NCBI RefSeq assembly: GCF_000013345.1 | Contig: NC_007777.1 | Span: 4,588,001 to 4,652,000 of the forward strand | Source of the DNA: Frankia casuarinae | Lineage (GTDB): Bacteria; Actinomycetota; Actinomycetes; Frankiales; Frankiaceae | DNA length: 64,000 nucleotides | Direction: 5' to 3' | Shown here: in pieces, positions 14,665 to 31,020 of the stretch | Layout: each line of letters starts with the position of its first letter | How positions within the stretch are numbered: the stretch's first letter is position 1 | Position numbers and translations under genes: made by a program | Notes under the pieces: generated by a model | Databases searched by the model: none | What the model saw: the letters and a program-made list of their open reading frames with translations, nothing else | Told to the model about the DNA's origin: nothing

Positions 14665-15312
14665 CTATGGCGAGCTGACCAGGCCGAGCGACGCCCTTCT
14701 GGCCTCGTCCCGCACCATCCCGAAGTACTCGACATACTCGAAGGCGCCCCGGCTCGAGACCACGCGGGCAGGAGCACCCACCGCGACCGATCGAGCAGCA
14801 AGCGATCGGGTTACCACGGCATTGGCGCCCACCAGGGCGTCGTCTCCCACCTCAAGACGACCCAGGATCCTCGCTCCAGTCCCGATACTCACCCGATCGC
14901 CGATTGTCGGGCGACCGAACTTCTCGCCAGTACCACTCTTTCCTATCGTCACATCGTGTCCTACGTTGCAGTTCTCACCAATTTCACAGGCACCAATGAT
15001 CACACCCCCAAAATGGGCGATAAAAAATCCCGGACCTATCCTGGCGGCGGGGGAGATCCAGATACCCGTCACGATCTGCGAAACCCGAGACAGAACGCGG
15101 TAGACAACCGTGCCCAAGAGCCGCCCTGCCGCCCCGGCTACGCCTTTCTGCGGACTTGCGACGAACGCACCGAACCGGTAGACGAGGATCGCCTGGAGGC
15201 CGGGGTTGTTCAGAACAGCAGCGATGCGACTGGCCCCGATCGAGCGGGGTCGACGGCCATCGTTGTCGTAGTAGACAAATCGGTCAATGTCCCGAAGAAC
15301 AACATTCTTCAA
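14665..15312 (-). CDS. Hexapeptide-repeat acetyltransferase (CysE/colanic-acid type), exopolysaccharide cluster
   Basis: A ~215-residue protein. A helical N-terminal segment is followed by a left-handed beta-helix from imperfect hexapeptides: ISPAARIGPGFFIAHFGGVI, IGENCNVGHDVTIG, IGDRVSIGTGARILG, VGDDALVGANAVVT. Family members O-acetylate serine or sugars using acetyl-CoA; the position at the end of a polysaccharide cluster favours a sugar substrate. The TTG at 15312 has GGGGAG six bases upstream and is preferred over the TTG at 15330. It is the last gene of the minus-strand island. Confidence 0.8.
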   Translation of the reverse strand: MKNVVLRDIDRFVYYDNDGRRPRSIGASRIAAVLNNPGLQAILVYRFGAFVASPQKGVAGAAGRLLGTVVYRVLSRVSQIVTGIWISPAARIGPGFFIAHFGGVIIGACEIGENCNVGHDVTIGKSGTGEKFGRPTIGDRVSIGTGARILGRLEVGDDALVGANAVVTRSLAARSVAVGAPARVVSSRGAFEYVEYFGMVRDEARRASLGLVSSP

Positions 15313-15462
15313 CGAACACTCCCCTGGCAAAAAATGGATGAGAAATGGTCGTCCACTGCCGGTAGATCGTTGATTTCAGCCGGCGGGTATAAGCCACTTC
15401 GCAGGGCACTGCCACAGTATCGTCGGGGCGCCAGCCGAAAAAATCTTGGAAGTCCGGCCTTT

Positions 15463-16503
15463 CTAAGGTCTGCCTGAATAGACACGCACATAGTCTACGA
15501 ACAGCGTCTGCGGGAACGCGGAGGCCGGCGGAAGCGGGGGGCTCAGCTTCGCGCTGACGGCGACATCCATGATTATATAGAAGTCTTTGTTCCACAGCCA
15601 AACCGGCGTGTCCTTCGGCTCGAGATGGCGGATGAGAAGGCCGTCGAAATAGAAGTCGAGCCTGTTCGGCCCCCAGTCAAGAGCATAGTTATGATAGCGA
15701 TCCGCAAGCGTGCCACCTGGGTAGACATAGTTCTTTCCCCGCCCCCACCAGCCGGCCTCCCAACGATTTCCAGAGCCATCCACTCCAACAATGTTGGTAT
15801 GGACCGTGGCCGGCTCGTTTGCCGTCGCCTCGACGACATCGATCTCGCCGGAGCGAGGCCAGTCATAAATTCCGTTCGGCCCTAGGAGCCAGAGAGCAGG
15901 CAACGTCCCGGTACCGATCGGCAGCCGGGCCCGGAACTCGAAGTACCCATATCTCCAGGAGGCCTTACCGCGGGTCTCCACCCGGCCCGACGAGAAGTGA
16001 GTATCCCCACAGGTTTTTACGGGAGATTTCTCCGCAATCGCCGTCAGCTTGAGATGGCCCTTGCCGTCCAGGCCGACGTTACGGGGATCGGCCGTATAAC
16101 AGGAGACGTCCGTCGGCCCCCATTTCCCCCCTTGCGTGATCAACCACCTGGCGGGATCAACCGAGGCGTTCGCCGGACCGTCAAATTCATCGGACCACAG
16201 CAGTCGCGGCTCCATCCCGTCATCCTCTCGCGGAGTCCGCGGACCATTCGGCGGAGAAACCTCTCCGGAGGATCGGGGACTAGAACCTGCCGAGGCGCCG
16301 GTCGCCGACGGTGGGCCGGATGGTAGCGCGGAGGAGGTCACCATGCCGCCAACGCCCGGACCAGCCACCGAAGGTCGAGGCGTGGCCTGCGGCGAACCAG
16401 ATTCCCGTTTCGAGGTTCCACATCCCACGACCAGGCAGACGAGAAGAAGAGCGACCAGTCCTCCGCGTCGACTCAGTCTCCAACGCCTCACCCGAGGTTT
16501 CAT
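15463..16503 (-). CDS. Glycoside hydrolase family 16 lipoprotein
   Basis: A 346-residue secreted enzyme. The signal peptide ends in a lipobox LVVGC (Cys28), so it should be anchored to the outer face of the membrane. A Ser/Pro linker (to ~95) precedes a GH16 jelly-roll starting at LLWSDEFDG. The catalytic motif GEIDVVEA gives Glu220 as nucleophile, Asp222 and Glu225 as acid/base, all present. GH16 enzymes cut or transglycosylate beta-1,3/1,4-glucans, agars or xyloglucans. Inside an exopolysaccharide cluster it could trim or release the polymer, or be a transglycosidase. The ATG at 16503 is chosen to give a normal signal peptide. Confidence 0.9.
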   Translation of the reverse strand: MKPRVRRWRLSRRGGLVALLLVCLVVGCGTSKRESGSPQATPRPSVAGPGVGGMVTSSALPSGPPSATGASAGSSPRSSGEVSPPNGPRTPREDDGMEPRLLWSDEFDGPANASVDPARWLITQGGKWGPTDVSCYTADPRNVGLDGKGHLKLTAIAEKSPVKTCGDTHFSSGRVETRGKASWRYGYFEFRARLPIGTGTLPALWLLGPNGIYDWPRSGEIDVVEATANEPATVHTNIVGVDGSGNRWEAGWWGRGKNYVYPGGTLADRYHNYALDWGPNRLDFYFDGLLIRHLEPKDTPVWLWNKDFYIIMDVAVSAKLSPPLPPASAFPQTLFVDYVRVYSGRP

Positions 16504-16980
16504 CCACCACGCCCCACATCTTCCGCCGGCACGACCAGTTGACTCGACGGTAAGCCATCTCATTTTCCGCAGAAACTACCATCCGTCAGAGGAGGTGAGC
16601 AAATGGGGATCCCGCCGTCCTGGCGCAGGCATCATCCCACCACAAACCCGTAGGACACCCACAGCGACAACAAGAGAGCCATCGGTCGAGGAACGCCGCG
16701 GTCACCGGTCGATCGAAGCCTCGATTCGTGCATGCTACCGGGCTGATCATTAACCGTTACGGCTGCAGGGTGGTGACAGCGCCCTGGCCATACCAAGTGG
16801 GCAAGGAGCCTAGACGCCATTAGGCCGGCCGTTCCGCCTGCGGCGAATGGGTATCGCCGCAGCGTGGTTCGACGGAAGGTGACAGGCGATTCACAGCATG
16901 TGCTGATCGACTGGCGGGCGCGCGTCGCCACTCCGGGCCTCTGGCGTCAATACGAATCCGGCACGCCCTCCAGGTCCCAC
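16504..16980. other. Intergenic region upstream of the GH16 gene
   Basis: These 477 bases contain no convincing gene; the short frames present lack recognisable motifs and ribosome sites. Because neighbouring island genes overlap or nearly abut, this gap suggests that the GH16 gene has its own promoter or that a gene was lost. Confidence 0.45.
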
Positions 16981-17838
16981 TCAGCGCGGGAACGGACGCA
17001 ACGATACACCGAGTTCCTTGACACGCTCATAGTTCACCACCTGTGGGGCGGGGCGGACAAGACCGAGTATCGAATCCGAACGTACCGGCAGTGGTATCCG
17101 CATCGCCTCCAAGGCCACGAGAGAACCGTACAGCGCCTTCCACGGGACGGGGAGGAATCGTGGCGAACGACCCGCCTCGCCCGCAAACTTCGCAACGATG
17201 TGCCGGAAGGACACCGGCTCTGGATGCGCGACACCAAGCGGCACCGAAATTTGACTATCCTTGACCAGGATCGCAGCCACCACAGCAGCCAGATCTTCCT
17301 CCTCCACAGTGAACTGGTAGGGGTTCCCACTCGGAGCCGGACTCACCGGAAGGCGGGACAACCGGGTGAGCGTGGCGGCCATCCCCCCCGCCCTCCTTCC
17401 GTAGACCAGGCCCGGCCGCACTACCGAGGCGCCGAAGGCGAGGGCGTCGCGTTCGATGGCGAGTTTCGCCGTCCCATATAGTTGCGCCGTCCCCTCATAA
17501 GCCGACATCGACGAGATGACGACGACCTTCGGGACGAAATTCTGCGCCGTTTCCAGAAGAGCTCGAGTCGGGTGGATGTTTGCCGCCTGAATATCCGGCC
17601 AGCGCCGGGCTCTCATGTCGTAGGCACAATGCACAAGCGCATCCAGACCATCGAGAAGGCCGGGGGCGAGAGCTCGCCTGGAGTCATAGAAGCGCCATTC
17701 TTCCGTCAGGTCGGCTGGCGGCCGTCGAACCAGTTGCACGGTCGTCCAGCCATCCTTGCGTAGCGCGTCCTGGATCACGCCGCCCACATAACCCTGGGCA
17801 CCGGTGATCCCCACGGTGCGCGTACCCGTATTCGTCAC
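16981..17838 (-). CDS. NAD(P)-dependent epimerase/dehydratase
   Basis: A 285-residue extended short-chain dehydrogenase. GITGAQGYVGGVIQDAL near residue 10 is the TGxxGxxG nucleotide-binding motif; VVVISSMSAYEGTAQLYGTAKLAIE carries the Ser and the YxxxK-type pair (here YGTAK). Members act on nucleotide sugars or polyprenyl-linked intermediates. Its start overlaps the end of the GMC oxidoreductase gene by four bases (ATGA), so the two are coupled and may act in sequence, for example oxidation then reduction of one sugar carbon. That pairing is inference; the substrate is unknown. Confidence 0.85.
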   Translation of the reverse strand: MTNTGTRTVGITGAQGYVGGVIQDALRKDGWTTVQLVRRPPADLTEEWRFYDSRRALAPGLLDGLDALVHCAYDMRARRWPDIQAANIHPTRALLETAQNFVPKVVVISSMSAYEGTAQLYGTAKLAIERDALAFGASVVRPGLVYGRRAGGMAATLTRLSRLPVSPAPSGNPYQFTVEEEDLAAVVAAILVKDSQISVPLGVAHPEPVSFRHIVAKFAGEAGRSPRFLPVPWKALYGSLVALEAMRIPLPVRSDSILGLVRPAPQVVNYERVKELGVSLRPFPR

Positions 17839-19430
17839 AACCCTCGCACCTCTGATCCTATTCGGTGTGCATTTGCCATGATCGTAAAAGTGAATGTCGT
17901 CGCCGCCACCGAAGGGAACACCGATGCGTCAACCAGGTGAATACGCCGCCACCCCCCTACCCGGCCAAGCATGTCACTTGTATGCCGGGTTCCCGAAACC
18001 CCGGAGGAATGCGGGAAGCTCCCACCCCAGTGGTAGCTCTTACCCGGCGCCGAACAGGAAACCATCGGCACCACCGGCCACAGATCGAGGAACGGGGCGG
18101 CGGTGACGAGCCGTCGCACCACCTTCCGGAGCAGCCCATTTCCGAGGACGCCGTCACGGGTACCGCTCAGGTGAATTTCCGGGAGATCCGCTTCACCAGC
18201 AGACGGGACAGCCTGAACCCGTAGCCGCGGAGAGGCCCACGACGGGAGATAACCCAGACCGACCGTAAGCCGCCGAAGAACCTCGTCACCAAGTACGGAG
18301 CCCCAACCGGACTGCAGGACCCGCGGAAGCGCCTCGGTGATCGCGGGATTATAGGGATAAAAGTGGATCTGTGATACATCGAGACCGACGTCATCCAGCA
18401 CAACAATCATATTGAACTGGTTGAGAGTCATCTCCCCGTCCGCACGCGGATCAGGTGTCCGGCGCCGCGACAGCATGGGAACCGTGAACTGCGCAGATTC
18501 GGCGAGCTCGATCCGCTCATCGAACCAACGCAACGAGTTCAGAGCAATCCTCGTGCTGCCCAGGGCGCCCGCGGCGAGAAAGATCCGATCTCCTTCTAGC
18601 TCCTGGGTCTGGCCACTCACGGTCTCCCGGGCGAACAGACGGGCCCCGGACTCGGACTCCTCAACCCGGAATACCAGGAGTCCCGGCAGGTACTTGACCC
18701 GACCTTCGCTGATCAACTGGTCGAATGTCTGTGCGGAGGAATAGATCAGCCGGTAAGGACAGCCTGTCATACAGAGACCGCAGCGGACACACTCGCCACC
18801 CCGGAGGGCCAGGCGAGCCTTTCCGACGGTGATGCCGTCGCGGCGCAGCCGCTCCCGATGCCTACCGTAGTCACCAATAACCTGGCGGGTCCGCGGTGCC
18901 AGGGTCGGCAGCGGTCGTGGCTCCCGGAACAATGGAAACAACTCGGCCAGATCGTCGATCGCGCCGGACATCGGGACATGGTCAAGGATTCGGCGGTAAT
19001 GCGGCTCCAACTCCTGGAGGGTGAAGGGCCAATGGCCGAAAGTCGCCTTGCTGAAGGGCATCAACTGCGAGCCCCACACATTACTGAAACCGCCGTACGC
19101 GCTGGAGACTACGGCCCGGTTCGCACCCACCATCGCACTCACCCCGCGGAGCTGCCCCTCGTCCCGGAAGGGGAAGTCGGATCCGTAGACCCGCTTCTCC
19201 GGAAGGGCCCGGCGCGAGGTGGGCACCGGCTGACGACTGATGATCTTAACCTGGTCGGAACGCCACTCGTCCGACTCTGAGCGACCGAGCTCGTCGACGA
19301 TGTTGGCAGCTTCGGCCTCGAGCCGCGTCCCGATGTCCACGACCAGGATTTCCTGGGTCGGGTCCTCGGCCAGTGCCAGAGCCGCTCCCGCGGCAGCGGG
19401 ACCCGATCCCACGATTATCGTCCGGGACAT
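17835..19430 (-). CDS. GMC-family FAD oxidoreductase with four-cysteine ferredoxin-like motif
   Basis: A 531-residue flavoprotein. TIIVGSGPAAAGAALALAED at the N-terminus is the FAD dinucleotide-binding motif. The C-terminal HLVDASVFPSVAATTFTFT segment matches the GMC C-terminal signature (asymmetric position of the catalytic region). At residues 214-224, CVRCGLCMTGC shows the CxxCxxCxxxC spacing of ferredoxins, followed by Pro; similar Cys-rich segments occur in some GMC alcohol oxidases, so an Fe-S cluster is possible but unproven. GMC enzymes oxidise alcohol groups of sugars, sterols or lipids. Here it is coupled to an epimerase/dehydratase in a polysaccharide cluster. Confidence 0.87.
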   Translation of the reverse strand: MSRTIIVGSGPAAAGAALALAEDPTQEILVVDIGTRLEAEAANIVDELGRSESDEWRSDQVKIISRQPVPTSRRALPEKRVYGSDFPFRDEGQLRGVSAMVGANRAVVSSAYGGFSNVWGSQLMPFSKATFGHWPFTLQELEPHYRRILDHVPMSGAIDDLAELFPLFREPRPLPTLAPRTRQVIGDYGRHRERLRRDGITVGKARLALRGGECVRCGLCMTGCPYRLIYSSAQTFDQLISEGRVKYLPGLLVFRVEESESGARLFARETVSGQTQELEGDRIFLAAGALGSTRIALNSLRWFDERIELAESAQFTVPMLSRRRTPDPRADGEMTLNQFNMIVVLDDVGLDVSQIHFYPYNPAITEALPRVLQSGWGSVLGDEVLRRLTVGLGYLPSWASPRLRVQAVPSAGEADLPEIHLSGTRDGVLGNGLLRKVVRRLVTAAPFLDLWPVVPMVSCSAPGKSYHWGGSFPHSSGVSGTRHTSDMLGRVGGWRRIHLVDASVFPSVAATTFTFTIMANAHRIGSEVRGL

Positions 19431-19487
19431 GTCACTTCCTTTTCCTGGCTACCGGATCGACCACAGCGGCGTACGTTCCCGGGAGAA

Positions 19488-20462
19488 TCACCGACCGGCG
19501 CGGTACTGGTGAAAAGTGCCCACGAGGTATCCGCTGCCGGCCGCCGCGACCCCGGCCAGCATGGTGGCCGATCGCAACGCCCCGGAGAGTTCACCCGCAC
19601 GGACCGCCCGGAGTTCCCGTGCCAGGCCACCACTCAACGTCTGCGCGACGAAACGCCGCTCGGCCGCCATGCTGGCCGCGCTTCCCATGCCTCGGAATGC
19701 GGCGACCTTGCCCTTGTTCACCGTGTAACAACGCTTCCAGAAGTACCGCCAGGTCAGCCTCTCCTTCGGCACGTGATGGTGGACCACTGCCGCCGGCTGA
19801 TACATCACCTTCAGATGAGGCCAGCGGTCTGCCAGCCGATGGCACATATCCATGTCGTCATGGTTGTCGGAGTGGAATCCGTTGATCTCAGCCAGGGCGG
19901 AACGACGGACCGACATGGCGGCGCCGATCAGGCGTCGGGTCGGTGCGAGAGTCTTGGGCAGGCCCTCATAACTGCATCCAAAGACCCAGTCGAACTCGCC
20001 GGGAAACCAGCGAGGGCGAGGAACGGCGAAGTCCGGAAGCGGCGCGCCGCCGACCGCGACCACGTCGCGACGGCCGAAGACCGCTACGATCTCCGCCAGC
20101 CAGGAAGGGTCAGCGCGAGCATCATCATCGAGGAAGGCCAATATCTCACCCGCAGCGATTTCGGCTGCGGTGTTGCGAGCTGATCCCAGCCGTCCCGGAT
20201 AGCGGTTCTCCACGACCACTACCCGGACATCCGCGTCTCGATCAGAGAATCTCTTGGCGGCCATCTGGAAAAGCTCTTCATTGTGGTCGATGCAGAGAAT
20301 TATCTCTATCGGACGGTACTTCTGTGCGAGCAGGGAGTCGATCGCTCTGTTCAGCAGTTCCCATCTTTCGAGTGTGTATGCGCATACAATCGCACTCACC
20401 GTCGGTTCCGTCGTCGAATGCAAAACGCTTACCTTCCCCCTGATATCCCGGCATTCGTCCAT
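19488..20462 (-). CDS. Family 2 glycosyltransferase
   Basis: A 324-residue GT-A enzyme: VSAIVCAYTLERWELLNRAI at the N-terminus, LAFLDDDARADPSW as the metal/nucleotide-sugar DxD site (about residue 113-117), then an acceptor-side DDMDMCHRL motif. Such enzymes transfer one sugar from a nucleotide donor on the cytosolic face of the membrane. The C-terminal ~60 residues are more hydrophobic and could peripherally attach the protein. It sits between the flippase and the GMC oxidoreductase genes. Donor and acceptor cannot be inferred. Confidence 0.88.
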   Translation of the reverse strand: MDECRDIRGKVSVLHSTTEPTVSAIVCAYTLERWELLNRAIDSLLAQKYRPIEIILCIDHNEELFQMAAKRFSDRDADVRVVVVENRYPGRLGSARNTAAEIAAGEILAFLDDDARADPSWLAEIVAVFGRRDVVAVGGAPLPDFAVPRPRWFPGEFDWVFGCSYEGLPKTLAPTRRLIGAAMSVRRSALAEINGFHSDNHDDMDMCHRLADRWPHLKVMYQPAAVVHHHVPKERLTWRYFWKRCYTVNKGKVAAFRGMGSAASMAAERRFVAQTLSGGLARELRAVRAGELSGALRSATMLAGVAAAGSGYLVGTFHQYRAGR

Positions 20463-20578
20463 GGGTCTCGCTCGTCGAATCTCCGGCGCCGAGTACAGGT
20501 CGTCAGTCGCTGTTCCGTCACCTCACGACCACCCCAAGACGCTTCTGGTCACCGCTCTGTTTCGGGTGCCATGCCAAT

Positions 20579-21976
20579 TCATCCGGGTACCCGCTCGATG
20601 GCCACCGATGACGAACCAGACGTCTGCGGCCGGTCACGCCACACGTTCAGGAGGACCGGCGCTACGACGACCGCCTCGATGAAGACGGCGGTGACCCAGC
20701 CGACGCATAGACCCGTCGTCCCAAACATGCGGCCCCCCCCGAAGGCCAACGCGATCTCAAGAACCGTTCCGCAGGCAATCACCCTGGCCGCCGCGGCCAT
20801 GCGGCCCTGTACTCGACGAAGAGTCACATAGTGATCCTTGACGACCAACGATATCGTGGCAAGGATGAGAATCCGGAAGGCGGCGACGGACCTACCATCG
20901 GTGTAGGCTTCTCCGAACGGCAGCAGAATCAGACTCGTGACGGATGCCGCGAGTGCGCAGAGCGTCACGCTGATCAGGAGCCCGAGCGGGATTGTCAGGC
21001 GCATCTTGGCACGCGCCTCCTCTTCGGCGCGGCCCGTGTGCGCAAGCAGGGCCGTCGGCAGTGCATAAGGAACAACGAAGAGAAAGGAAGCGGCCAGCCG
21101 AGCGGTCGAGAATCGAGCGGTGTCCGCCGGTGTCGTCGTCAGGGCGGCGATTACAGGAAGAATCAGAGTCGGCACGGTCAGCGCGAGGCTCAGCACGTAA
21201 TTGCCGGCTATCTCACCCTTGATCGCCTTCAGCTCGGCGATCCCGGTCTGCCGTTCCGCTCGTCTGGAGTTTCGATAGGGTGGTCGCCTGAAGTACTTGT
21301 AGCAAACCGGGAGGGAGACGACCGACGCAATAAGCCAGGTGGCGTAGAGGTCCATGCCGGTGCGCAGGCCCACGATGACAAAGGCAACGAGCAGACCTGC
21401 TCTGACGATTGCGGCGAGCAGATTCCGAACAAGCTGGATCGCCCCACTCGCCGCCCGGAGGATCGCGTAGTCGAGAGTGGTGGTCACCGTAAATGCGGCC
21501 ACTCCCAGACTGAAGGCAGCTATACTGCCTGGACTGCTACCGATTGGCTGCAGAGTGGTCGAGAGCCAGCGGGTACAGAACGCCCACAACAGGCCGAGTA
21601 GCAGCCCGGCCACCGTGACCAGCGCCATGCAGGCGCGGACCAGAGTCAGGCGGCGGTCCTCCGGCAGGTCGGGAAGATGCACCATGAGAAGCGTCCCGAG
21701 CCCCAGCATTCCGATCGTGCCGAGGACCGTCATCGAGGACACCGCCGCCGCGCCCACCCCAACGGCGTCGATGGAGAGCGTTCTCGCCGCGACCGACCAG
21801 AACACAGCTCCAAGTAAAGACGTTCCGAGCTGGGTGCCGAGTAGGGAGCTCACGATCGTCAACAGGCGCGCGAAACCGGCACCGGAAGCCTTCTGCACGG
21901 ATTCGCTCGGGACGATACCGCTCCCGGCTGGCGTCTGGCGCCTTAAGAAGATCGTCTCCTCATCAGACCGACTCAC
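20579..21976 (-). CDS. Polysaccharide flippase (Wzx/MATE-like membrane transporter)
   Basis: A ~465-residue polytopic membrane protein with about 12-14 hydrophobic helices. The early helix LLTIVSSLLGTQLGTSLLGA and the overall pattern fit the oligosaccharidyl-lipid flippase family. It is expected to move lipid-linked repeat units across the membrane. The GTG at 21976 is chosen because the upstream frame is an antisense-like extension through the next gene; it overlaps the end of that glycosyltransferase gene by 14 bases. A clear Wzy polymerase is not evident in the cluster. Confidence 0.82.
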   Translation of the reverse strand: MSRSDEETIFLRRQTPAGSGIVPSESVQKASGAGFARLLTIVSSLLGTQLGTSLLGAVFWSVAARTLSIDAVGVGAAAVSSMTVLGTIGMLGLGTLLMVHLPDLPEDRRLTLVRACMALVTVAGLLLGLLWAFCTRWLSTTLQPIGSSPGSIAAFSLGVAAFTVTTTLDYAILRAASGAIQLVRNLLAAIVRAGLLVAFVIVGLRTGMDLYATWLIASVVSLPVCYKYFRRPPYRNSRRAERQTGIAELKAIKGEIAGNYVLSLALTVPTLILPVIAALTTTPADTARFSTARLAASFLFVVPYALPTALLAHTGRAEEEARAKMRLTIPLGLLISVTLCALAASVTSLILLPFGEAYTDGRSVAAFRILILATISLVVKDHYVTLRRVQGRMAAAARVIACGTVLEIALAFGGGRMFGTTGLCVGWVTAVFIEAVVVAPVLLNVWRDRPQTSGSSSVAIERVPG

Positions 21977-23090
21977 GATAAATCCTCGCCAAGGCTTCCG
22001 CGCAGCCGTCCCAGGTCGGCAGGGTGGAGATTTCGGGAGTCGGCCTCGTCTCGCTCGGTGAGTCCCCAGCGCTGGCGAGCAGGTAGATGCCCAGCGTCTT
22101 CGCCACGAGTTGTTCATCGGCCGGATCCGCAACGCTCTGCGCGAGCCCTGCCGCAGCCAGCTCTCCCAGTCCGGCAGTGGGCGCCACCACCACCGGCCTA
22201 CCCAGGGCCACGGCTTCCATGACCGCGACCGGATGAGCCTCATACTCGCTAAGCAGGGCCACGACACCCGCTCTCGCGATACAGTCAGACATTGCCTGCC
22301 GGTCCTCCGGTGGTATCGAGGTGAAACTCACCCGGTCCACCACACCCAGCCGGTCAGCCAGGCGCCTCAACTCCGGCTCATCAGGGCCCCGCCCCACCAG
22401 CATCAGCCGTACGTCAGGAACTAGAGTAATCAGACTCGGCAGAGCGCGGACAAGGTGCCGCTGTCCCTTGTACTTCTCCAACCGGCCGACGCAGACGACA
22501 AGCGGCTCACTCGTATCGGGTTTGACATGGCCACTCGGTGGAACGATGGACACTCCGTTCGGGACGACCGAGATCCGGTCTGCAGCGACCCCGGCTTGGC
22601 GCATGAAGATGTGGGACTCGAACTCCGCGACGCAGATGACGCGGCGGGCGTTCCTGATCAGTGGCCCGAGCAGGCCCCACTGTACTCGGCGCGCCGTGTT
22701 CCGGACCTGCGAGGAATGACCGCCGGTATGCGGTGAGACAATATAAGGAATACCCCTCAGGCGAGCCGCCGCCATCGCCACCGGCGGCACGAGATTGTGA
22801 ATTCCCTGACAATGAACAAGATCATAAGAACCGAATCCGACCACTTTGGCAACGGCCGGCGCCAAATAATAGTCTTTCTCTTGCGGCCACGCCGCGACCC
22901 GGTGCACCACCGTTCCCGCGACATTCTCCCTGCTGGGAAGCTTGCCGCTGCGGTCGGTCGTCAATATCTCCACGGTAATGTCACTAGTAGCGTTGAGTCG
23001 ACGACTCGTCTCGTAGACATGCGTCTCGGTACCACCCATGTCCGGGAAGAATCGTGCCGCCACCTGGAGCACCCTCAGTGCCGTCCCCAT
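21963..23090 (-). CDS. Family 4 glycosyltransferase
   Basis: A ~375-residue GT-B enzyme. The N-terminal ARFFPDMGGTETHVYETSRR is the typical Gly-rich acceptor-domain loop; CVGRLEKYKGQRHLVRALPS begins the donor domain; SEYEAHPVAVMEAVALGRPV carries the E-x7-E motif of retaining GT4 enzymes. The ATG at 23090 has GGAGGGGGAA directly upstream. It probably adds one sugar to the growing lipid-linked oligosaccharide. Confidence 0.9.
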   Translation of the reverse strand: MGTALRVLQVAARFFPDMGGTETHVYETSRRLNATSDITVEILTTDRSGKLPSRENVAGTVVHRVAAWPQEKDYYLAPAVAKVVGFGSYDLVHCQGIHNLVPPVAMAAARLRGIPYIVSPHTGGHSSQVRNTARRVQWGLLGPLIRNARRVICVAEFESHIFMRQAGVAADRISVVPNGVSIVPPSGHVKPDTSEPLVVCVGRLEKYKGQRHLVRALPSLITLVPDVRLMLVGRGPDEPELRRLADRLGVVDRVSFTSIPPEDRQAMSDCIARAGVVALLSEYEAHPVAVMEAVALGRPVVVAPTAGLGELAAAGLAQSVADPADEQLVAKTLGIYLLASAGDSPSETRPTPEISTLPTWDGCAEALARIYRESV

Positions 23091-23161
23091 TTCCCCCTCC
23101 TCAGGTCGACCCATCCTTCCGGGACCGGCTGTCCCGGGGTTCAAGCGCACGTCACCCGCGC

Positions 23162-23806
23162 CTAATCCTCGATCTCAGTGGAACGGACCACGTAACTACC
23201 GACCATCAGTTGAACCGTTGCGACGCGCGGGTCCCCGACATCACGAAGATCAACATAGAGCCGGACGTCATCGTCCCCAAAAAGACGACGAGTCCATACC
23301 GACCCGTCATCCCGTACTATCTGTAATATAAAAGACCGCTCATCCTGGTAGCCACGCACCACCTCGATTTCCACCTTGCCGTCGATACTGCGCGCGGCGA
23401 TTGCTGTGACCGGTCGCCGCGCTACCGATCCCGACTGCCAGGAAAGCGCGATCGCCCCGCAGAACACAGCGACGACAATCGCCAAGAACAGCGCGCTGGA
23501 CGGTTTCGGCATCGGGATCATGACCAGCCTTGCCGGTCTCCACGGTGCACCAGCCCGGAGAAGAAGTGCCACCACTACGGCAAGAAAAATGTCGTAGCCC
23601 ACTGCGTGGGTGGCTAACCCCAAAGCGGAGAGAGCGAGAGAGACGAACATCAGGATGCACACGACTGCCAGCGCCGCGCAGGTATGCACATAGAAGCCGG
23701 TTAGCTGAGGCCGGCGTTGTAAAACCAGCCAGCGGATCCCCTGATACACGAAGGCGATTAGCGAAGTTCCCACGAGCCCCTCGAGCACGAGGATCAAGAC
23801 TCTCAT
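23162..23806 (-). CDS. Hypothetical membrane protein coupled to the GT-C-like gene
   Basis: A 214-residue protein that I cannot assign to a named family. Four hydrophobic segments (about residues 3-25, 40-65, 70-88 and 103-122) are followed by an ~90-residue soluble domain rich in beta-strand-like sequence (KVEIEVVRGYQDERSFILQI). Its start overlaps the end of the preceding 665-residue membrane protein by four bases, so the two are likely made in equal amounts and may form one complex. The soluble C-terminus would face outside if the N-terminus is cytoplasmic and four helices are correct. Confidence 0.7.
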   Translation of the reverse strand: MRVLILVLEGLVGTSLIAFVYQGIRWLVLQRRPQLTGFYVHTCAALAVVCILMFVSLALSALGLATHAVGYDIFLAVVVALLLRAGAPWRPARLVMIPMPKPSSALFLAIVVAVFCGAIALSWQSGSVARRPVTAIAARSIDGKVEIEVVRGYQDERSFILQIVRDDGSVWTRRLFGDDDVRLYVDLRDVGDPRVATVQLMVGSYVVRSTEIED

Positions 23807-25800
23807 CGGCCGGCCCGGACAGCCGAGGTCGAGTCTTCCCAGAGGCCCGAGACGTCATAGATACGGACGGCTCCGTTGTCGTAGATCCGCCGCGATCCAG
23901 GCGTGATATCGAACTTGCCGAGTTCTGCATGGGTGAGACGCGTCCCCTTCGGGGCCTCACCATTCACCACGTAGTACGTCTCATGCGGCAACCCCTCGGC
24001 CAGCCGCTGATCGATCACATAATACCGTATCTGACCTCTCCGGAGCAGATCCCGCGCCTGGGCATGGAAGGACGGCGCGAAAAGGATCTGTCCGGTGTTC
24101 CCACCTCCAGGTACACCGATCACCAAATACTGATTTCCGGTGGCAGCCAAAAGCGCCCCTAGCTCCCGGTCCGCGGCAAAGTGGGCGCCGTCGGGAAGAT
24201 TCCGGGCCGCCCACTGCGCCGCGGCGTTGGCGGAGCTATCGATGGAACGGCCGTCGGCAACGACGAGGTAGGGGCCCGGTATGCGGTTCCAATCGAGTCC
24301 AGAGCCCATCAGGGTGCCCCCCATGAAGGCTATGGTGCCGAAAAGGGCCACCACCCACCGCAGCGGCCTCCGATGGTTCTCGATATACCAGCCAATCGAG
24401 TATGCGGTGATGATCGACAACCCGATGAAGATGAAGGTCGATAGACGTACGGATATCTCCGCCGCCTTCGGGGCGATCGTGGCCACCAGGGCGATCGGAT
24501 ACAGGAGTTGTAGCAATCGAAGCGACCGCAGCACCGCACCCGCACGTCCGTCCGCCGCAGGTCTCCTCCGGAATGGGCCCAACGGCATGAGTGTCGCCAT
24601 CCAGATAAGCAGCGAGAGCACAATGAGAACAGTTTCCCAGCGCGGGTTCCTGGTGCCACTCGAATCTGTCGAAATTTTTCTCGTCTCACCGGTCCCGCTC
24701 GCGATTCCCGTCAACTGGAAAACGGCATCGTGAAAAACTGGACCGAGATATCGGTTGAGCAGCGGACCACTGACAATCGCCCAAGACGCGACCAGGACAA
24801 GGTCCGCCACTGTGATACCCAGGAATATGGTAGCGGTGCGGCGGTCCCGTCGGGTAAACGCGGCGACCGTCACCATTCCCAATATGGCGACGAACACCCA
24901 GCTCGTGGCATGGTGCGAGAAGGTGAGAGCCAGCGCCGCGCCCGCCGCCAAGACGGTTTCAGTGCGGCCCGCCGCCTCGTTCGTAACCAGCATGAGAAGC
25001 AGAACACCGAGAGCCACGGCTAGCGTCTGATACGAGTACTGCGCGTTGAAGAAGAAGAACTGCGGGCTACAGCTGTAGATACCGACAGCAATACCCGCGG
25101 CGTGGGCGGAACGAGTCACCTGCTCGGCGAGAAGGAACAGGCCGGCGATCAGCAGACCCCGAGAGAGCACGATGACAAGAAAGGCGGAGAGCTGTGGTGG
25201 CAGACGGGTGATCTGTGCCACCGCGTTGGTGACCACCTCGAGTCCAGGGAAGCGCGGGCTGACCGGCAAGCCAGAGTTAGCCGTGAAGAGACGACCCGTT
25301 TCCCGGATGTCATGCAAGGTCCGGATATGGAGCATCTCGTCAAAGCGGACGAACTGGTGGATCTGGAGTATCAGATACGCCAGCAGGAGGCCCATGCCCA
25401 ACAACAAACAATCCGTTATTCTCGCCCGCCGAGATGTTGCCGGATCCAAGAGCCCCAGACCGGCCGGAACGAAGATCAGGAGCAGGCCAATCCAGTAGAG
25501 CAGGAGGCCCGTGCCACTCTCACCCTGGCGCCCGAGTACGTAGCTACCAGAGACGGCCAGCAGTCCCACCGCGGTGGCTGCCGCCACCGGTAGCGTCTCC
25601 CTACAGTACCTCTCGGAATCAGCGCGTAAAAGTAACCCGCCACGATCGCGGTAGTGCAGATCGGTCAACAAACTCGCACTCAGCCCAGCGGATACCACTC
25701 TCCGGGTCGCCTCCGGCCCCCGGCCTCGCCCGGTGCGTGCGGTACGAAGATTCCGGGGTATGAGAGTCGTCTCCTCCTCATGGAGGCGGTAGGCCGGCAT
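23803..25800 (-). CDS. Large polytopic membrane protein, GT-C glycosyltransferase-like
   Basis: The ~665-residue protein has a ~65-residue cytoplasmic N-terminus, then about 12 hydrophobic helices, then an ~180-residue soluble C-terminal domain. The first extracytoplasmic loop begins RFDEMLHIRTLHDIRETG; an acidic motif at this place is typical of GT-C enzymes that use polyprenyl-phosphate sugars. A polymerase (Wzy-like) role is an alternative, since no other polymerase candidate is visible. The ATG at 25800 is the first good start after the previous gene ends. It is coupled to the small membrane protein downstream. Confidence 0.72.
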   Translation of the reverse strand: MPAYRLHEEETTLIPRNLRTARTGRGRGPEATRRVVSAGLSASLLTDLHYRDRGGLLLRADSERYCRETLPVAAATAVGLLAVSGSYVLGRQGESGTGLLLYWIGLLLIFVPAGLGLLDPATSRRARITDCLLLGMGLLLAYLILQIHQFVRFDEMLHIRTLHDIRETGRLFTANSGLPVSPRFPGLEVVTNAVAQITRLPPQLSAFLVIVLSRGLLIAGLFLLAEQVTRSAHAAGIAVGIYSCSPQFFFFNAQYSYQTLAVALGVLLLMLVTNEAAGRTETVLAAGAALALTFSHHATSWVFVAILGMVTVAAFTRRDRRTATIFLGITVADLVLVASWAIVSGPLLNRYLGPVFHDAVFQLTGIASGTGETRKISTDSSGTRNPRWETVLIVLSLLIWMATLMPLGPFRRRPAADGRAGAVLRSLRLLQLLYPIALVATIAPKAAEISVRLSTFIFIGLSIITAYSIGWYIENHRRPLRWVVALFGTIAFMGGTLMGSGLDWNRIPGPYLVVADGRSIDSSANAAAQWAARNLPDGAHFAADRELGALLAATGNQYLVIGVPGGGNTGQILFAPSFHAQARDLLRRGQIRYYVIDQRLAEGLPHETYYVVNGEAPKGTRLTHAELGKFDITPGSRRIYDNGAVRIYDVSGLWEDSTSAVRAGR

Positions 25801-25858
25801 TCCGCCGACCGAGGATGAGTCGAGTTTCTCGACTGGTGAGGCCTCGTTCCTCCGACGG

Positions 25859-27076
25859 TCAACGAAGCGATGCACGGACGACCTCGCGATAGACCTCCTC
25901 GATACGTGGCACCACCCGACTCGCGGTGAATTCTTTCGCACGCTCCTTCGCGGCAGTGCCCATGCGCGCCCGCCTAGTACCATCCGCCAAGAGATGCTCG
26001 ATCGCGTCGTGGAGAGCCACCGGGTCGGCCGGGGGAACCAGGACTCCCTCCCGACCGCCAGTGATCATATCGGCGATGCCTCCCATCGGCGTGGAGATTA
26101 CTGGTGTCCCGGACGCCATAGCCTCGAGGACAACGGTCGGACAGGGATCATGCCAGGTAGATGGCAGAACAGCGAAGCTGGCGTGAGCGAAGGCACGCAT
26201 GATCTCAGCATGAGCTCGCGGCTCGCTCAGAATCACCCCGGGCGGAAAATAGCTCGGTGAATCTGCCGTCCGACGGCCGACAACGAGCAGCGGCGGACGA
26301 TGATCCGGAAGCCTCTCGTAAGCCCCGAGTAGTGCCCCTATCCCTTTGTCCAGGCTCAGATCACCGACGAAAACCAGGTAGCCATCGGAGACGAGCCCGT
26401 CCGGCGGTCCGCCAGGCTCCGCGCCGATGAGCTCGTCGGGGATAAAGTTCGGGACGACCTCATAGGGAATCCGCCCACTGTCCAGCCGGTTGAGCCGGGC
26501 CACGGCGTTGCTCACCGCAAGGTATCGGTCGACGGCCCTGTCGCGCCGTCGTGTGCCACCGCGGTTAGCCGCGAAGGTCAAGGGCCCCACCACCCCGGAG
26601 TAGTGGTTTCTGGTGCATCGTATGCATCGTGACAGTGCTGGGCCGGAGCACACCAGCTCCCCCATAAACATCATCCGCTTAGTGGCACAGACATGGCTGT
26701 AGTCATGCAGGGTGACGACGATCGGGACGTCGAGGTACCTGCGCAGCGGCAGCGCACTGTTCACGATCCAGTTGTGCGCATGGATAACGTCGGGCTTCAC
26801 CTCACGCACGATCCTGGCGATCGCCGCTGCTACTAGCGGATCTGGCACCGGCGGCGCATAGACCCGGTCGGTCGTGTAAAGCAATGGAAGACCTGCGGTT
26901 GTCGGCCGCACTAGACGCACGTCCAAGCCATCCCGCTTCTCGGCCGCCGCCCGAGGGCCAAAAGTTATCACCGTGACGTCGTGGCGTTCAGCCAGTTGCT
27001 TTCCGAGATTGAGGACATGACGTTCCTCCCCACCGACGATCGGCGGAAAGAACTGTGCCAGCAGAATTACCTTCAC
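25859..27076 (-). CDS. Family 4 glycosyltransferase
   Basis: A 405-residue GT-B enzyme: VILLAQFFPPIVGGEERHVL at the start, VFVGDLSLDKGIGALLGAYE opening the donor domain, and STWHDPCPTVVLEAMASGTPV with the E-x7-E-like motif. The N-terminal domain carries a Cys-rich stretch (CSGPALSRCIRCTRNHY) seen in some actinobacterial GT4 proteins, possibly a structural metal site. It precedes the GT-C-like gene by 58 bases and is probably co-transcribed. Confidence 0.89.
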   Translation of the reverse strand: MKVILLAQFFPPIVGGEERHVLNLGKQLAERHDVTVITFGPRAAAEKRDGLDVRLVRPTTAGLPLLYTTDRVYAPPVPDPLVAAAIARIVREVKPDVIHAHNWIVNSALPLRRYLDVPIVVTLHDYSHVCATKRMMFMGELVCSGPALSRCIRCTRNHYSGVVGPLTFAANRGGTRRRDRAVDRYLAVSNAVARLNRLDSGRIPYEVVPNFIPDELIGAEPGGPPDGLVSDGYLVFVGDLSLDKGIGALLGAYERLPDHRPPLLVVGRRTADSPSYFPPGVILSEPRAHAEIMRAFAHASFAVLPSTWHDPCPTVVLEAMASGTPVISTPMGGIADMITGGREGVLVPPADPVALHDAIEHLLADGTRRARMGTAAKERAKEFTASRVVPRIEEVYREVVRASLR

Positions 27077-27284
27077 GATGATCGCGGTCCGGACCCCCGA
27101 GGCGGGACTCTTGACGGTTTGGGTGAAGTCATAAGAGGCGGTCTCGGTTCATGTCGTGGTAGGACCGCCTCATGGGTAGGGGAACTATCAGGCTTCTGAT
27201 ACATCGAAATTTGACCATCCGCCACACCGGCGGAACCGCTCCGCACGGCCCATACTCGGGAACAATCGTCCCGGCACAGGGACA

Positions 27285-28100
27285 TCAGGCCGTTTCTTCG
27301 AAAGCGGGTAGGGCGCTCACCGTTTCGGCACCCCGCTGGATTGGAAGCGGATCGGTCCTAGGATAGATCGCCAATTCAGCCTTCTCGCTCGACGCGGAAG
27401 ACTCGACGAAAATCGTGCGCAACACCCGGAAACCATCCGAGAATGCGTTCAGGTTACTGACCCCATGCAGGCGTGGATGTTCAAAACTCGGGACCTCCGC
27501 TATGCGAAGTCCAGCCCGCACGGCCCGCATGTTGATCAACGTCTCGATCTCGAATCCGTCCCCCCACTGCTTTTGGGGTCCGGCACCGCCTGTGTCCAAG
27601 TCGAAGATGGGGACGACCCGTCGCCAAAAAGCGTTGTAACCGTAGCAGAGGTCGGTGAAGTCCGAGCCAATGAGCATGTTGACCAGGAAGTTCAGGAGAC
27701 GGTTCCCGAGGCGACGGAGACGAGTGATGTCGGCGCTTCCGCCGTTCGCGACGAAACGCGAGCCCTTGGCAAAGTCAGCACCCGCTTCGAGCGCATTAAC
27801 GAACGCAGGAATCTCGCTCGGGTCGGCTGAGCCGTCGGCATCGAGCATGACAATGATGTCACCACTTGCCTGGGCGAACCCACAGGCCAGAGCGTTTCCC
27901 TTGCCACGGCGATTCTGGTGTGTCACGACTATATCCGGCCGAACACGACGAGCGACTTCGACGGTTCCGTCGGTCGAGTGGCCGTCAACCAGAATTATTT
28001 CAGCATCGCCCGGTAGTCGAGCGAGAACATGTGGTAGATTTTTTGCTTCGTTGAGAGTCGGGACGATGATACTGACAGTCGGCGAAATACGGCCTCGCAT
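27285..28100 (-). CDS. Family 2 glycosyltransferase, dolichol-phosphate mannosyltransferase-like
   Basis: A 271-residue GT2 enzyme with VSIIVPTLNEAKNLPHVLAR, IILVDGHSTDGTVE and the metal site VMLDADGSADPSEI. This pattern matches the DPM1 group, which makes polyprenyl-phosphate sugars. That would supply the donor for a GT-C enzyme such as the 665-residue protein two genes downstream; the link is inference. The gene has 208 non-coding bases after it and a ~900-base non-coding region before it, so it may be the first gene of the main island operon. Confidence 0.87.
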   Translation of the reverse strand: MRGRISPTVSIIVPTLNEAKNLPHVLARLPGDAEIILVDGHSTDGTVEVARRVRPDIVVTHQNRRGKGNALACGFAQASGDIIVMLDADGSADPSEIPAFVNALEAGADFAKGSRFVANGGSADITRLRRLGNRLLNFLVNMLIGSDFTDLCYGYNAFWRRVVPIFDLDTGGAGPQKQWGDGFEIETLINMRAVRAGLRIAEVPSFEHPRLHGVSNLNAFSDGFRVLRTIFVESSASSEKAELAIYPRTDPLPIQRGAETVSALPAFEETA

Positions 28101-28330
28101 AAGAGGTCCTCCCGATTTCGATATACTACTGAATTTGGAGTCTTCTCACGCTTCTCGTGCACTAGCGACAGCAAAGCCTGACGGAAATCTGCGGCAATCA
28201 GGAATGGACGGAGCAGGTCGCTAGAAGAGACTGCGAGACAGGACTCGATCAGCGTCCGCTCAGCGAAGCAAAGACTCAACTACCACCCCCGCGACGGCTT
28301 GCCACTTCTTTACGAAAAAAATTAAGCTGA

Positions 28331-28374
28331 GTGCCTCACTTCGCCCCCGATCTCAAAGCGTGCCTCACCTCGCC
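28331..28374. repeat. Direct repeat GTGCCTCACYTCGCC, two copies 29 bases apart
   Basis: GTGCCTCACTTCGCC (28331-28345) and GTGCCTCACCTCGCC (28360-28374) differ at one base and are spaced 29 bases start to start, close to three helical turns. They lie in the AT-rich leader region of the polysaccharide operon and could be regulator sites. Confidence 0.55.
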
Positions 28375-28406
28375 AAGAAGCGCCGTCGCGTGCGGTAAGT
28401 GTACCA

Positions 28407-28427
28407 GGTAACCTTCTACAGGTTACC
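28407..28427. promoter_or_regulatory. Candidate operator: 8-bp inverted repeat, 5-bp spacer
   Basis: GGTAACCT and AGGTTACC are perfectly complementary around TCTAC. The size and symmetry fit a dimeric regulator site, about 310 bases upstream of the first glycosyltransferase gene. GGTA-AGTG-TACC just before it (28394-28405) repeats part of the pattern. Confidence 0.45.
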
Positions 28428-28997
28428 CCTATGGGCGTCGCCAACAGAGTGTGCACTGCAACACTATACGAAGACACACCGGATCACCGCTCCAACCCCC
28501 CTAGATCGCTACTCTCTGTAGGACTCAACTCCCGTTCACCCTCCCGCCGACACCGCGGCACCAGCATTCGAGACGGCCATCGGTGTCTTCATTTTGCTGC
28601 CACGACCCTCCACCGCAAGCAAGAAGTTGATGGGGGAGACGGCCAGAGATGGGCCCACGATCTGCTTCGCAGAGCATCCTTTGATGCATCTCCGCTCGGC
28701 CAGCGAGATAGAGCCGCCGAGCCAGGTGGGTCTCAGGCCAGGCGCAACAACGCGTCGTCGATCCGGTTAGAGTCCGACACGTCTCCCCGATCGACGGTGG
28801 GTCACACAGCTCCTCGCGCGCCCGACACCAATCGTCAGATCGCCCGGCATGCTGAGCTACCGGTCGTTGACGGGTTCCGGCTGGCAGGCTGCACGAGTCC
28901 TTGCCTGGGGCAGGACGGGACAAGCCAAAGTGATCATTTTCGGCAAACATCCCGGGACCCGCGGTCCCAAATACTCCCCGAAGGCCCCGGCCAACCG

Positions 28998-29031
28998 TCC
29001 CGGGAGGATCCCGTTCGGGATCCTCCCGGGA
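28998..29031 (-). terminator. Perfect long hairpin downstream of the priming transferase gene
   Basis: Sixteen-base arms beginning TCCCGGGAGGATCC are perfectly complementary around a two-base centre, 65 bases beyond the stop of the priming transferase. No T-run follows. A smaller GGGACC-CGC-GGTCCC hairpin lies about 30 bases further on. Both would isolate that gene from the rest of the island. Confidence 0.65.
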
Positions 29032-29095
29032 GAGAACCCGGACGACACCCAAGATCGCGAATCACGTCAGAGTACTGCCACTACGTGAGGAAGGC

Positions 29096-30709
29096 TCAGT
29101 ACGCACCCTCGCGGCGCAGGACCGCGAACACGGTGCGCCAGAGGATGTAGAAGTCGAGGGGCAGCGACCAGTTCTGCACGTACCGCAGATCCAACCGCAC
29201 CGACTCGTCCCATTCGAGGTCCGACCGGCCGCTGATCTGCCACAGGCCGGTCAGCCCCGGCTTCACCATCAGCCGGCGGTGCACGTCGTCCTCGTAGCGG
29301 GCGACCTCCGACGGCAGCGGCGGACGCGGCCCCACCAGCGACATCGTGCCGTTCGCGACGTTGAGCAGCTGCGGCAGCTCGTCGAGCGACCACTTGCGCA
29401 GGAACTTCCCGACCTTGGTGATCCGCGGGTCGTCACGCATCTTGAACAGCAGCCCCTCGGCCCGCTCGTTGCGCGACTCCAGCTCCGCCTTGCGCGCCTC
29501 CGCGTCGACGTACATCGACCGGAACTTGTACATGGTGAAGTGCTCACCACCCCGGCCGACCCGGATCTGCTTGAAAATGGCCGGCCCACGACTGGTCAGG
29601 CGCACCGCCAGCGCCAGGGCCAGGAACAACGGCGCGCACAGCAGGAGAACCCCCGCGGCCACACTGCGGTCGAACAGGCCCTTCATGGCCCGCCGCGCGC
29701 CGGTGAGCTCCGGCTCCTCGATGTGCAGCAGCGGCAGCCCGGCCACCGGACGAATCGAGATCCGCGGCCCGGTCACGTCGGTCAGCGCCGAGGAGACCAG
29801 CACGTCGACGTCGCTGCCCTCCAGCGTCCACAGCACCCGGCGCAACGTCTCGCCGTCCATCTGCGGACTGATGGCAACCGTGGTGGCGTACGTCGCCCGG
29901 ATGGCCGTGTGCAGGGTTTCCGAGGTGCCGACGATCGGCACCCCGAGCAGGTCGAACCCACTGCGTTCCGGGGAGTCGTGACTGTGCCGGCCGGGCGAGC
30001 GGTCGAGCACGACACCGACGACCGACCAACCCGACGTCGGATCCCGCTGGGCCAGCCGGACCAACGCCGCCGCGGAGTCCCCCGCCCCGACCACCAGCAC
30101 CCGGTGCAGGCAGCGGCCCGCCCGGCGCATCCGGTGCAGGTAGCCGCGCGCGGTGGCGCGGCCGGCCACGGTCAGCAGCAGCGCCGTCGGGAAGGCGATC
30201 AGCACGTAGGCACGCGCGAGCTCGGCCTTGGTCGCATAGGACAGGACGGCCACCACCGCGGTGAGCTGCGCGGCGGCGTTGAGGACCCGGCGGAACTCCT
30301 CCGAGCCGCTGCCGAGGAACCGGCTCTCGTACGCCCGGCTCAGGTACATCGACAACACCCACGCGACGGGCAGCAGGATCGACATGGCGACATACGGCGT
30401 CGCGGAGACCGGCTTCAGGTCGAACTCAACCAGTCCGCCGAACCGGACCAGGTAGGCCACTCCCGCCGCGACCACGCAGGCGGCCGCGTCGGAACCCACG
30501 AGCAGCCAGCCGTACGGCCGTTCCCAGCGAACCTTCGCCCGGTAGTCGACGACACCGTCGGATGTTCCGTCCGCGCCGGGGCCCGCGCCCACCTCGTACC
30601 CGTCGTACCGGGCGGGCTCATCGGCCCCGTCCAGCGGTTTCGGGATGGCATCCGTGCCCGGCCCCGCGGCCAACCCCACCTGTGCATGGCTGAAGACAGT
30701 GTCCGTCAC
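29096..30709 (-). CDS. Priming polyprenyl glycosylphosphotransferase (exopolysaccharide initiation)
   Basis: A ~537-residue WbaP/WcaJ-like enzyme that moves a sugar-1-phosphate from a nucleotide sugar to undecaprenyl phosphate, the first step of polysaccharide assembly. The N-terminal half has about four or five membrane helices and a CoA-binding-like Rossmann domain (VLVVGAGDSAAALVRLAQ). The C-terminal catalytic domain begins MKGLFDRSVAAGVLLL and contains MYKFRSM, LRKWSLDELPQLLNV, SLVGPRPPLPSEV and KPGLTGLWQISGRSDL, all intact. The GTG at 30709 has a GGGGGG stretch eight bases upstream. It is separated from the other island genes by hairpins. Confidence 0.93.
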   Translation of the reverse strand: MTDTVFSHAQVGLAAGPGTDAIPKPLDGADEPARYDGYEVGAGPGADGTSDGVVDYRAKVRWERPYGWLLVGSDAAACVVAAGVAYLVRFGGLVEFDLKPVSATPYVAMSILLPVAWVLSMYLSRAYESRFLGSGSEEFRRVLNAAAQLTAVVAVLSYATKAELARAYVLIAFPTALLLTVAGRATARGYLHRMRRAGRCLHRVLVVGAGDSAAALVRLAQRDPTSGWSVVGVVLDRSPGRHSHDSPERSGFDLLGVPIVGTSETLHTAIRATYATTVAISPQMDGETLRRVLWTLEGSDVDVLVSSALTDVTGPRISIRPVAGLPLLHIEEPELTGARRAMKGLFDRSVAAGVLLLCAPLFLALALAVRLTSRGPAIFKQIRVGRGGEHFTMYKFRSMYVDAEARKAELESRNERAEGLLFKMRDDPRITKVGKFLRKWSLDELPQLLNVANGTMSLVGPRPPLPSEVARYEDDVHRRLMVKPGLTGLWQISGRSDLEWDESVRLDLRYVQNWSLPLDFYILWRTVFAVLRREGAY

Positions 30710-31020
30710 CTGGCAGACCCCCCACGGCCGCAACATCTTCGGACCGACGACGACGGGGGGAGCGCTGCTTGGCGCCGACCACGCGTGTCACCTGCGTATC
30801 GACGTGCCCAGGCCTGGTGCCGAGCCCCCGAACCCGCCGCACCACCGGCCATCCGGACCCCCCATCCGACCGGCACCGCACATACGCGAGTAACTCTAAC
30901 GTGCCGAGATAGGAGGATCCACGACGTCAACCCCGATGACTCATACGCGTAACAAAAATCGCGACTAGGCGGTCAAGGGACACGACAGTCAGGAGACACA
31001 ACAGTCAGGAGACACAACAG
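30710..31020. other. Intergenic region between dapE and the priming transferase
   Basis: These 311 bases hold no gene that I can support. The dapE-proximal end is a 16-base tandem repeat; the middle (30890-30970) is less GC-rich than the genes around it and probably holds the promoter of the priming transferase. Confidence 0.5.

Follow-up and report, generated by a model that had tools for sequence, protein, structure and literature searches.

A GT-C_A-type membrane glycosyltransferase and a DUF1616-like partner as possible polymerase of an Agl-like exopolysaccharide cassette in Frankia casuarinae

We analysed a window of 64,000 nucleotides of the Frankia casuarinae genome (G000:C1:4588001-4652000, within a chromosome of 5,433,628 bases), focusing on two adjoining genes for membrane proteins of 665 (P0002) and 214 residues (P0001). 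According to our analysis, the large protein is very probably an outer-face, lipid-donor glycosyltransferase of the GT-C_A type, as judged from its predicted fold and loop residues, and the small protein is probably its subunit, as suggested by a linkage kept across phyla. More tentatively, and at slightly less than even chances, we posit that the pair acts as the polymerase completing an Agl-like exopolysaccharide pathway based on polyprenyl phosphate. An earlier note on this DNA had placed the two genes inside a cluster, with an overlap of four bases; both frames are indeed open and have an ATGA in common, and a same-strand polysaccharide cluster is seen around both genes.

23803..25800, minus strand: large protein P0002, 665 residues, predicted GT-C_A-type membrane glycosyltransferase, open reading frame from ATG to stop
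23162..23806, minus strand: small protein P0001, 214 residues, DUF1616-like partner, open reading frame from ATG to stop
23803..23806, minus strand: ATGA stop/start overlap of the large and small genes, 4 shared bases
25327..25341, minus strand: codons of D154-E155-M-L-H158, the acidic motif of the first loop
24910..24915, minus strand: codons of H296-H297
23845..24252, minus strand: C-terminal globular domain of P0002, residues 517-652, resembling the AglB C-terminal domain 3vu0_C

The GT-C matches of P0002 in Pfam were all weak, with PMT_2 (PF13231) at E 9e-4 and 19.9 bits against a cut-off of 26.1; the relative L059 passes this cut-off with 26.8 bits. The AlphaFold2 model of P0002, built from 18 sequences, has a pLDDT of 80.5 and a pTM of 0.82, with low confidence at residues 1-52. 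Foldseek matched it to oligosaccharyltransferases (OSTs; best E 2.3e-8), DPY19, AftA and ArnT. VIA-align gave Z 16-22 over 435-477 residues for the OSTs (one entry, 3wak, 13.6), followed by ALG12 (17.4), ArnT (17.1), AftD (15.7), Pmt4 (15.3) and AftA (15.0). While the best OSTs lie about 5 Z above ArnT, bacterial PglB (17.3) is level with it, and the nearest class of P0002 is therefore GT-C_A, not OSTs specifically. The C-terminal domain aligned with that of AglB (3vu0_C) at Z 12.2 and rmsd 3.0 over 130 residues.

Acidic residues of the first outer loop are typical of GT-C_A enzymes, and the earlier note had pointed to an acidic RFDEMLH motif at this place. The motif occupies residues 152-158, in the first loop by the model. 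Over 32 aligned sequences, the window's own included, D154 and H158 are invariant and E155 is kept in 31, so the motif is no accident. Also invariant are Y242, H296, Y351, R452, W530, D544, D597, R599 and D649, and E188 and H297 are found in 31 of the 32. Predicted fold and loop residues together bear out the GT-C assignment made from the sequence, whereas the Wzy fold, which had been considered as well, finds no support: Pfam gave no Wzy_C (PF04932) match to P0002 at E <= 1, and WaaL appeared weakly in Foldseek (E 0.061, prob 0.35, TM 0.14/0.20) and not among the best 50 VIA-align matches. PMT/ArnT/AftD-type GT-C_A enzymes (PF13231 and kin) share the fold with P0002, with PMT_2 remaining under its cut-off; we know of no comparable partner and cassette for these enzymes.

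The closest folds being OSTs, C-terminal domain included, it might be asked whether the pair moves a glycan to secreted proteins, for which AglJ- and AglG-like neighbours would also speak. P0002 shares with STT3, AglB and PglB (GT66, PF02516) the GT-C_A fold and an alpha/beta C-terminal domain. WWD(Y)G is the motif of the STT3/AglB C-terminal domain; the WWD signature of N-oligosaccharyltransferases is present in 0 of the 32 aligned sequences, and STT3 (PF02516) was over its cut-off in 0 of 16 genomes, with weaker matches in two of them and none in the window's own genome. Membership of P0002 in the N-glycosylation OSTs was rejected on these grounds. Since the rhizobial cassettes described below moreover carry Wza-type exporters and glycoside hydrolases adjoining or near, we consider OST-like protein glycosylation improbable. 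Our literature search on AglB in Actinobacteria found no paper.

The linkage of enzyme and partner was followed in two sets of sequences, which overlap in the Frankiaceae. Of 34 named loci with the enzyme, obtained from one scan of genome contigs, 19 have a partner gene after that of the enzyme. Eighteen of these partners went into the profile and match it by construction; the one of L041 did not. No partner gene is present in 14 loci, where the enzyme has a C-terminal extension ("tail") of 138-182 residues with several predicted helices, and in the remaining locus the contig ends inside the enzyme gene. Partner and tail never occur together (0/34). The in-frame four-base overlap is found in the window and in seven of the 19 named loci (L037, L038, L039, L040, L044, L061 and L065; L041, whose sequence is broken by N, was left out of this count). 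The enzyme profile gave 25 matches over 296 class genomes, of which 22 were strong (E under 1e-57) and three weak ones were set aside. The 22 strong genomes comprise 15 with a partner by profile, one with a partner by topology only, four with a tail and two with neither. Seven of the 15 profile-matched partners come from outside the Frankiaceae and had not entered the profile (E 3e-12 to 3e-44).

Actinomycetota, Chloroflexota, Acidobacteriota and Pseudomonadota all have loci with the partner beside the enzyme, at identities to P0001 down to 13-19%, and this kept linkage supports the idea of a functional pair. The earlier note had named clusters with one protein and not the other as evidence against it, and such cases were found in part, with a tail in 14/34 loci and 4/22 genomes and with neither in 2/22. 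In a midpoint-rooted tree of the 34 enzymes, the enzymes with a tail group together (support 91/86, not starred) beside the window's clade; since the tree needs one tail origin only, the mutual exclusion of partner and tail counts as one evolutionary event. A reading of the tail, which is that of the Nocardioides clade, as a fused partner was dropped: the topology is similar, and profile comparison (10% and 3.8%) lent no support to homology, with the Frankia small proteins reaching 10% and E 0.0031 against the tail profile in hhalign.

Could the small protein be an unrelated neighbour that is translationally coupled to the enzyme and not a subunit of it? P0001 has no direct Pfam match over cut-off, ATGA overlaps are of a common kind, and in Rhizobium a gene lies between enzyme and partner. 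Conservation beside the enzyme in four phyla despite the low identity speaks against such chance adjacency, as does the membrane tail that most partnerless enzymes carry, even if kinship of tail and partner is unsupported by profiles. We therefore give this explanation little weight.

Two parts of P0001 can be told apart in its model (pLDDT 79.7, pTM 0.49), the placement of the beta domain not being fixed by the model because of the low pTM.

23432..23803, minus strand: four predicted transmembrane helices of P0001 within residues 2-125 (model helices 2-31, 38-61, 68-86 and 104-125)
23165..23422, minus strand: fibronectin type III (FnIII)-like beta domain of P0001, residues 129-214, with seven strands within 133-211

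Among its best 50 matches the beta domain resembles mostly FnIII/Ig-like domains (Z 8.0-9.4), an arrangement that is common. On its own, P0001 matched no Pfam or NCBIfam family over cut-off, and neither DUF1616 (PF07760) nor GtrA (PF04138) was listed for it at E <= 10. DUF4131 (E 0.01, under its cut-off) was dropped, and so was a GtrA-like flippase, given the missing PF04138 match; the genome does have three GtrA matches, all at other places. Searching solved structures with sequence profiles of both proteins gave nothing useful.

The partners at the same place in relatives are more telling. In a metagenome-assembled Frankiaceae genome (L035, on one contig with L070), the partner downstream of the enzyme hits DUF1616 with E 8.7e-16, and 11 of the 19 aligned partners do so at E <= 0.1 (best 2.4e-21). 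DUF1616 was over cut-off in two of the 296 class genomes, both times directly downstream of the enzyme; three matches below cut-off occur in class genomes without the enzyme. In hhalign, five Frankia-type small proteins aligned with the 11 DUF1616-type partners at 91% and E 1.1e-6 over 160 columns. A hidden Markov model (HMM) made from the DUF1616-type partners alone finds L033 (2e-4) and L034 (7e-8), two intermediate partners, and misses P0001 at E <= 1e-3. As P0001 has no direct match, its kinship with DUF1616 is deduced from profile comparison and gene position, by which it stands at the diverged extreme of a family of partners that are DUF1616 proteins in relatives. This names in part the family of the smaller protein, for which the earlier note could give none. 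Like DUF1616 proteins it has helices followed by a beta domain, at the same place beside a GT-C enzyme; it differs in the lack of a PF07760 match and, by alignment, seems to be without the first helix. In Haloferax, the DUF1616 protein HVO_2173 carries AglB-type glycans on a glycopeptide ending LVLGVGNQE, according to excerpts of PMC8241124, the only paper found for DUF1616. This end resembles the beta-domain consensus IGVxNxE, from which we infer that the beta domain of HVO_2173 lies outside. In a Mycobacterium metagenome-assembled genome (L063 8424-9461), Wzx-like sequence shares its frame with another, second DUF1616-like stretch, which may be an assembly artefact.

P0002 holds the place that Wzy (GT-C_B, PF04932) would take, within a cluster containing Wzx and without another polymerase candidate. 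That the window has none, as previously claimed, holds as far as helix count and Wzy_C search go. By a simple hydropathy count over frames of at least 200 residues, at least six helices are found in the large protein, Wzx and the frame 43449-44828 only; the latter (plus strand, six predicted helices) is far outside the cluster. In the window's genome, the closest Wzy_C match lies at a distance of about 96 kb and scores below cut-off. None of 23 enzyme-bearing genomes showed Wzy_C at 29 kb or less from the enzyme on its contig, a count that gives a minimum because several contigs are shorter (6 to 27 kb); somewhere in the genome it is present in 18 of them and absent in five. EpsG was found in none of nine genomes. 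O-ag_pol_Wzy was found in three of the nine, over cut-off in G004 (far away) and G011 (on a different contig) and below it in G188, and not in the window's own genome; its control matched once, under cut-off. A PF13425 search matched none of the control genomes and so carries no weight.

Outer-face GT-C enzymes of other classes, for example WaaL, are ligases, and the GT-C enzyme might likewise attach the completed polymer to an anchor, either a lipid or part of the cell wall, for which the FnIII-like outer domain could, by its fold, bind the glycan. This would leave the cassette without a polymerase, and no anchor gene was among the cluster genes of the window that we looked for in relatives, so that we regard a ligase as a poor candidate.

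The cassette around the pair runs on the same strand in the order PGT (polyprenyl glycosylphosphotransferase), GT2a, GT4a, large protein, small protein, GT4b, Wzx, GT2b, GMC-type oxidoreductase, epimerase, GH16 and acetyltransferase.

29096..30736, minus strand: PGT, outside the conserved core; TIGR03025 E 9.1e-127, above cut-off
27285..28100, minus strand: GT2a, a DPMS-like GT2; 5mlz E 1e-16; AglJ the best NCBIfam model
25859..27076, minus strand: GT4a glycosyltransferase, by Pfam
21963..23150, minus strand: GT4b glycosyltransferase, by Pfam
20579..22000, minus strand: Wzx-type flippase, start codon unsure; PF01943 E 0.0021, below cut-off; 9 predicted helices
19488..20462, minus strand: GT2b; AglG the best NCBIfam model
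15463..16563, minus strand: GH16 glycoside hydrolase; PF00722 E 1.1e-17

The two GT2s resemble haloarchaeal enzymes, with all scores under the curated NCBIfam cut-offs. GT2a of the window matches AglJ (TIGR04182) at E 1.2e-38 with 133.1 of the 325 bits of the equivalog cut-off, and GT2b matches AglG (NF041394) at E 1.3e-50 with 172.4 of 440 bits. AglJ was the best NCBIfam model for all eight bacterial GT2a proteins tested (E 7e-30 to 1e-38) and AglG for all seven GT2b proteins tested (E 1e-45 to 2e-62), in comparisons that included no unrelated GT2 as control. Among the named loci, 22 have complete flanks of 6 kb; in these, tblastn (E <= 1e-8) found GT2a and GT2b near the enzyme in 20 each, Wzx in 18 and the PGT in one. 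In the full set of 34, where contig ends truncate many loci, the corresponding numbers are 24, 26, 22 and 1. AglJ/AglG likeness and rarity of the PGT suggest polyprenyl monophosphate as the carrier, by analogy with the haloarchaeal pathways. The cassette shares the AglJ-/AglG-like GT2s and a flippase with the haloarchaeal Agl and AepG pathways and differs from them in the missing AglB-type STT3 match and in GT2 scores below the equivalog cut-offs. In Haloarcula hispanica, DolP-linked glucuronic acid is used for an acidic exopolysaccharide, as stated in excerpts of PMC9943897.

The GMC-type oxidoreductase (17835-19430) contains a Cys-rich stretch, CVRCGLCMTGCP, with weak 4Fe-4S Pfam matches that are all under cut-off; tblastn found this gene in QA3 and not in the other relatives compared. 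The G+C content is 0.61-0.65 over window positions 14000-30000, against about 0.71 around, which may mean that this cluster was acquired.

In a plasmid collection the enzyme was found in 18 Rhizobium records and one Mesorhizobium record. On pRL11 of R. johnstonii 3841 (L108), whose cassette genes carry no gene names in the annotation table, the genes run Wza-type exporter, GT2a, GT4, enzyme (8749-10848), DUF6492, partner (11729-12556), GT2b, Wzx and GH5. Mesorhizobium has GT2a, GT4, enzyme, partner, GT4 and Wzx, with exporter and GH5 close by in the opposite orientation. The gene tables of both stretches, which are incomplete, list neither a PGT nor a Wzy. Against the HMM of DUF1616-type partners, the partner proteins of Rhizobium and Mesorhizobium reach 4e-35 and 1e-46, and against Pfam DUF1616 only 0.053 and 0.0029. 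Of four open reading frames after Wzx in the Nocardioides clade, one gave a weak GH39 and three no Pfam match, so that the window, Rhizobium and Mesorhizobium are the only cases with a demonstrated hydrolase gene.

A Haloarcula plasmid encodes an AglJ-like GT2 (E 2.5e-23), a DUF1616 protein (E 1e-77) and a membrane protein of 596 residues. The latter aligned with the enzyme profile in hhalign at 87.6% and E 3.5e-6 over 440 columns, first-loop motif included; a plain HMM search gave E 0.82 and did not find this kinship. For the other Haloarcula GT2 tested, TuaG and not AglG was the best model. The polysaccharide-like locus (L109 8781-23242; L112) also has a sulfatase-like gene and aglF. Around a Methanohalobium DUF1616 gene, no glycosyltransferase is annotated, so DUF1616 is not confined to this system.

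Starting from the computed fold, motif conservation, linkage, neighbour families and the lack of a Wzy found close by, we infer physical contact, topology, donor, acceptor and polymerisation as follows. The AglJ-like GT2a would load the first sugar onto polyprenyl phosphate, and the GT4s and the AglG-like GT2b would lengthen the glycan. Wzx would then flip the polyprenyl-phosphate-linked glycan, and the pair, working on the outer side of the membrane, would transfer it to the growing chain, a polymerisation in place of Wzy. D154 in the first loop of the large protein is the likely catalytic acid. The small protein would be a membrane subunit with four helices beside the enzyme and its FnIII-like domain outside, where it would probably hold the acceptor glycan or position the C-terminal domain of the enzyme.

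The most serious competitor, possible yet clearly less likely than polymerisation, is a three-component decoration in which GT2a makes a polyprenyl-phosphate monosaccharide, Wzx flips it, the GT-C enzyme adds this one sugar outside, to a polymer or a lipid-linked repeat, and another enzyme polymerises. GT2a resembles polyprenyl-phosphate sugar synthases of known structure, and the synthase, MATE-family flippase and GT-C enzyme of the GT136 systems, as given in excerpts of PMC11127046, have counterparts in the cassette. GT-C_A families with known donors mostly use lipid-phosphate monosaccharides, according to excerpts of PMC10920833, and this favours single-sugar transfer. The cassette differs from the GT136 systems in its further glycosyltransferases and its DUF1616-like partner. 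Three further cytoplasmic glycosyltransferases in the window's cassette, recurring in many relatives, argue against decoration, as do the single flippase seen in the window's cluster and the lack of a polymerase found nearby. We favour polymerisation over the addition of one sugar, ligation or protein glycosylation because of Wzx, the several cytoplasmic glycosyltransferases, the rhizobial exporters and hydrolases and the missing nearby Wzy.

Besides the known GT-C_A donors, several observations weigh against a polymerase pair of this kind. A distant Wzy could serve the cluster, Wzy_C being present in 18 of the 23 genomes, and a distant relative of the enzyme has as its neighbour a frame of 747 residues and 14 helices that by eye looks like an O-antigen polymerase or ligase (L036 3436-5679). 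GT2a was not found by tblastn in two of the 22 full-flank loci. The window retains a PGT, maker of lipid-PP starters, and a monophosphate carrier is for this reason not settled for Frankia. Two class genomes carry neither partner nor tail, and in Rhizobium the DUF6492 gene stands between the two members of the pair. Finally, the FnIII domain is absent in the tail clade and hence not always needed.

In its widest form, which we regard as unlikely at present, the proposal would be a further exopolysaccharide route besides the Wzx/Wzy, ABC-transporter and synthase routes, common to bacteria and haloarchaea. It would combine polyprenyl-monophosphate repeats, AglJ/AglG-type GT2s, Wzx and an OST-fold GT-C_A polymerase needing a DUF1616-like subunit, with no PGT or Wzy. 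The plasmid-borne Rhizobium cassette makes the questions of carrier (mono- versus diphosphate) and of polymerase or decorator testable. If the enzyme does replace Wzy in some Wzx loci, the recognisable combination of enzyme and partner would make such loci readable, DUF1616 would gain a role, and bacterial exopolysaccharide loci would be linked to haloarchaeal Agl chemistry.

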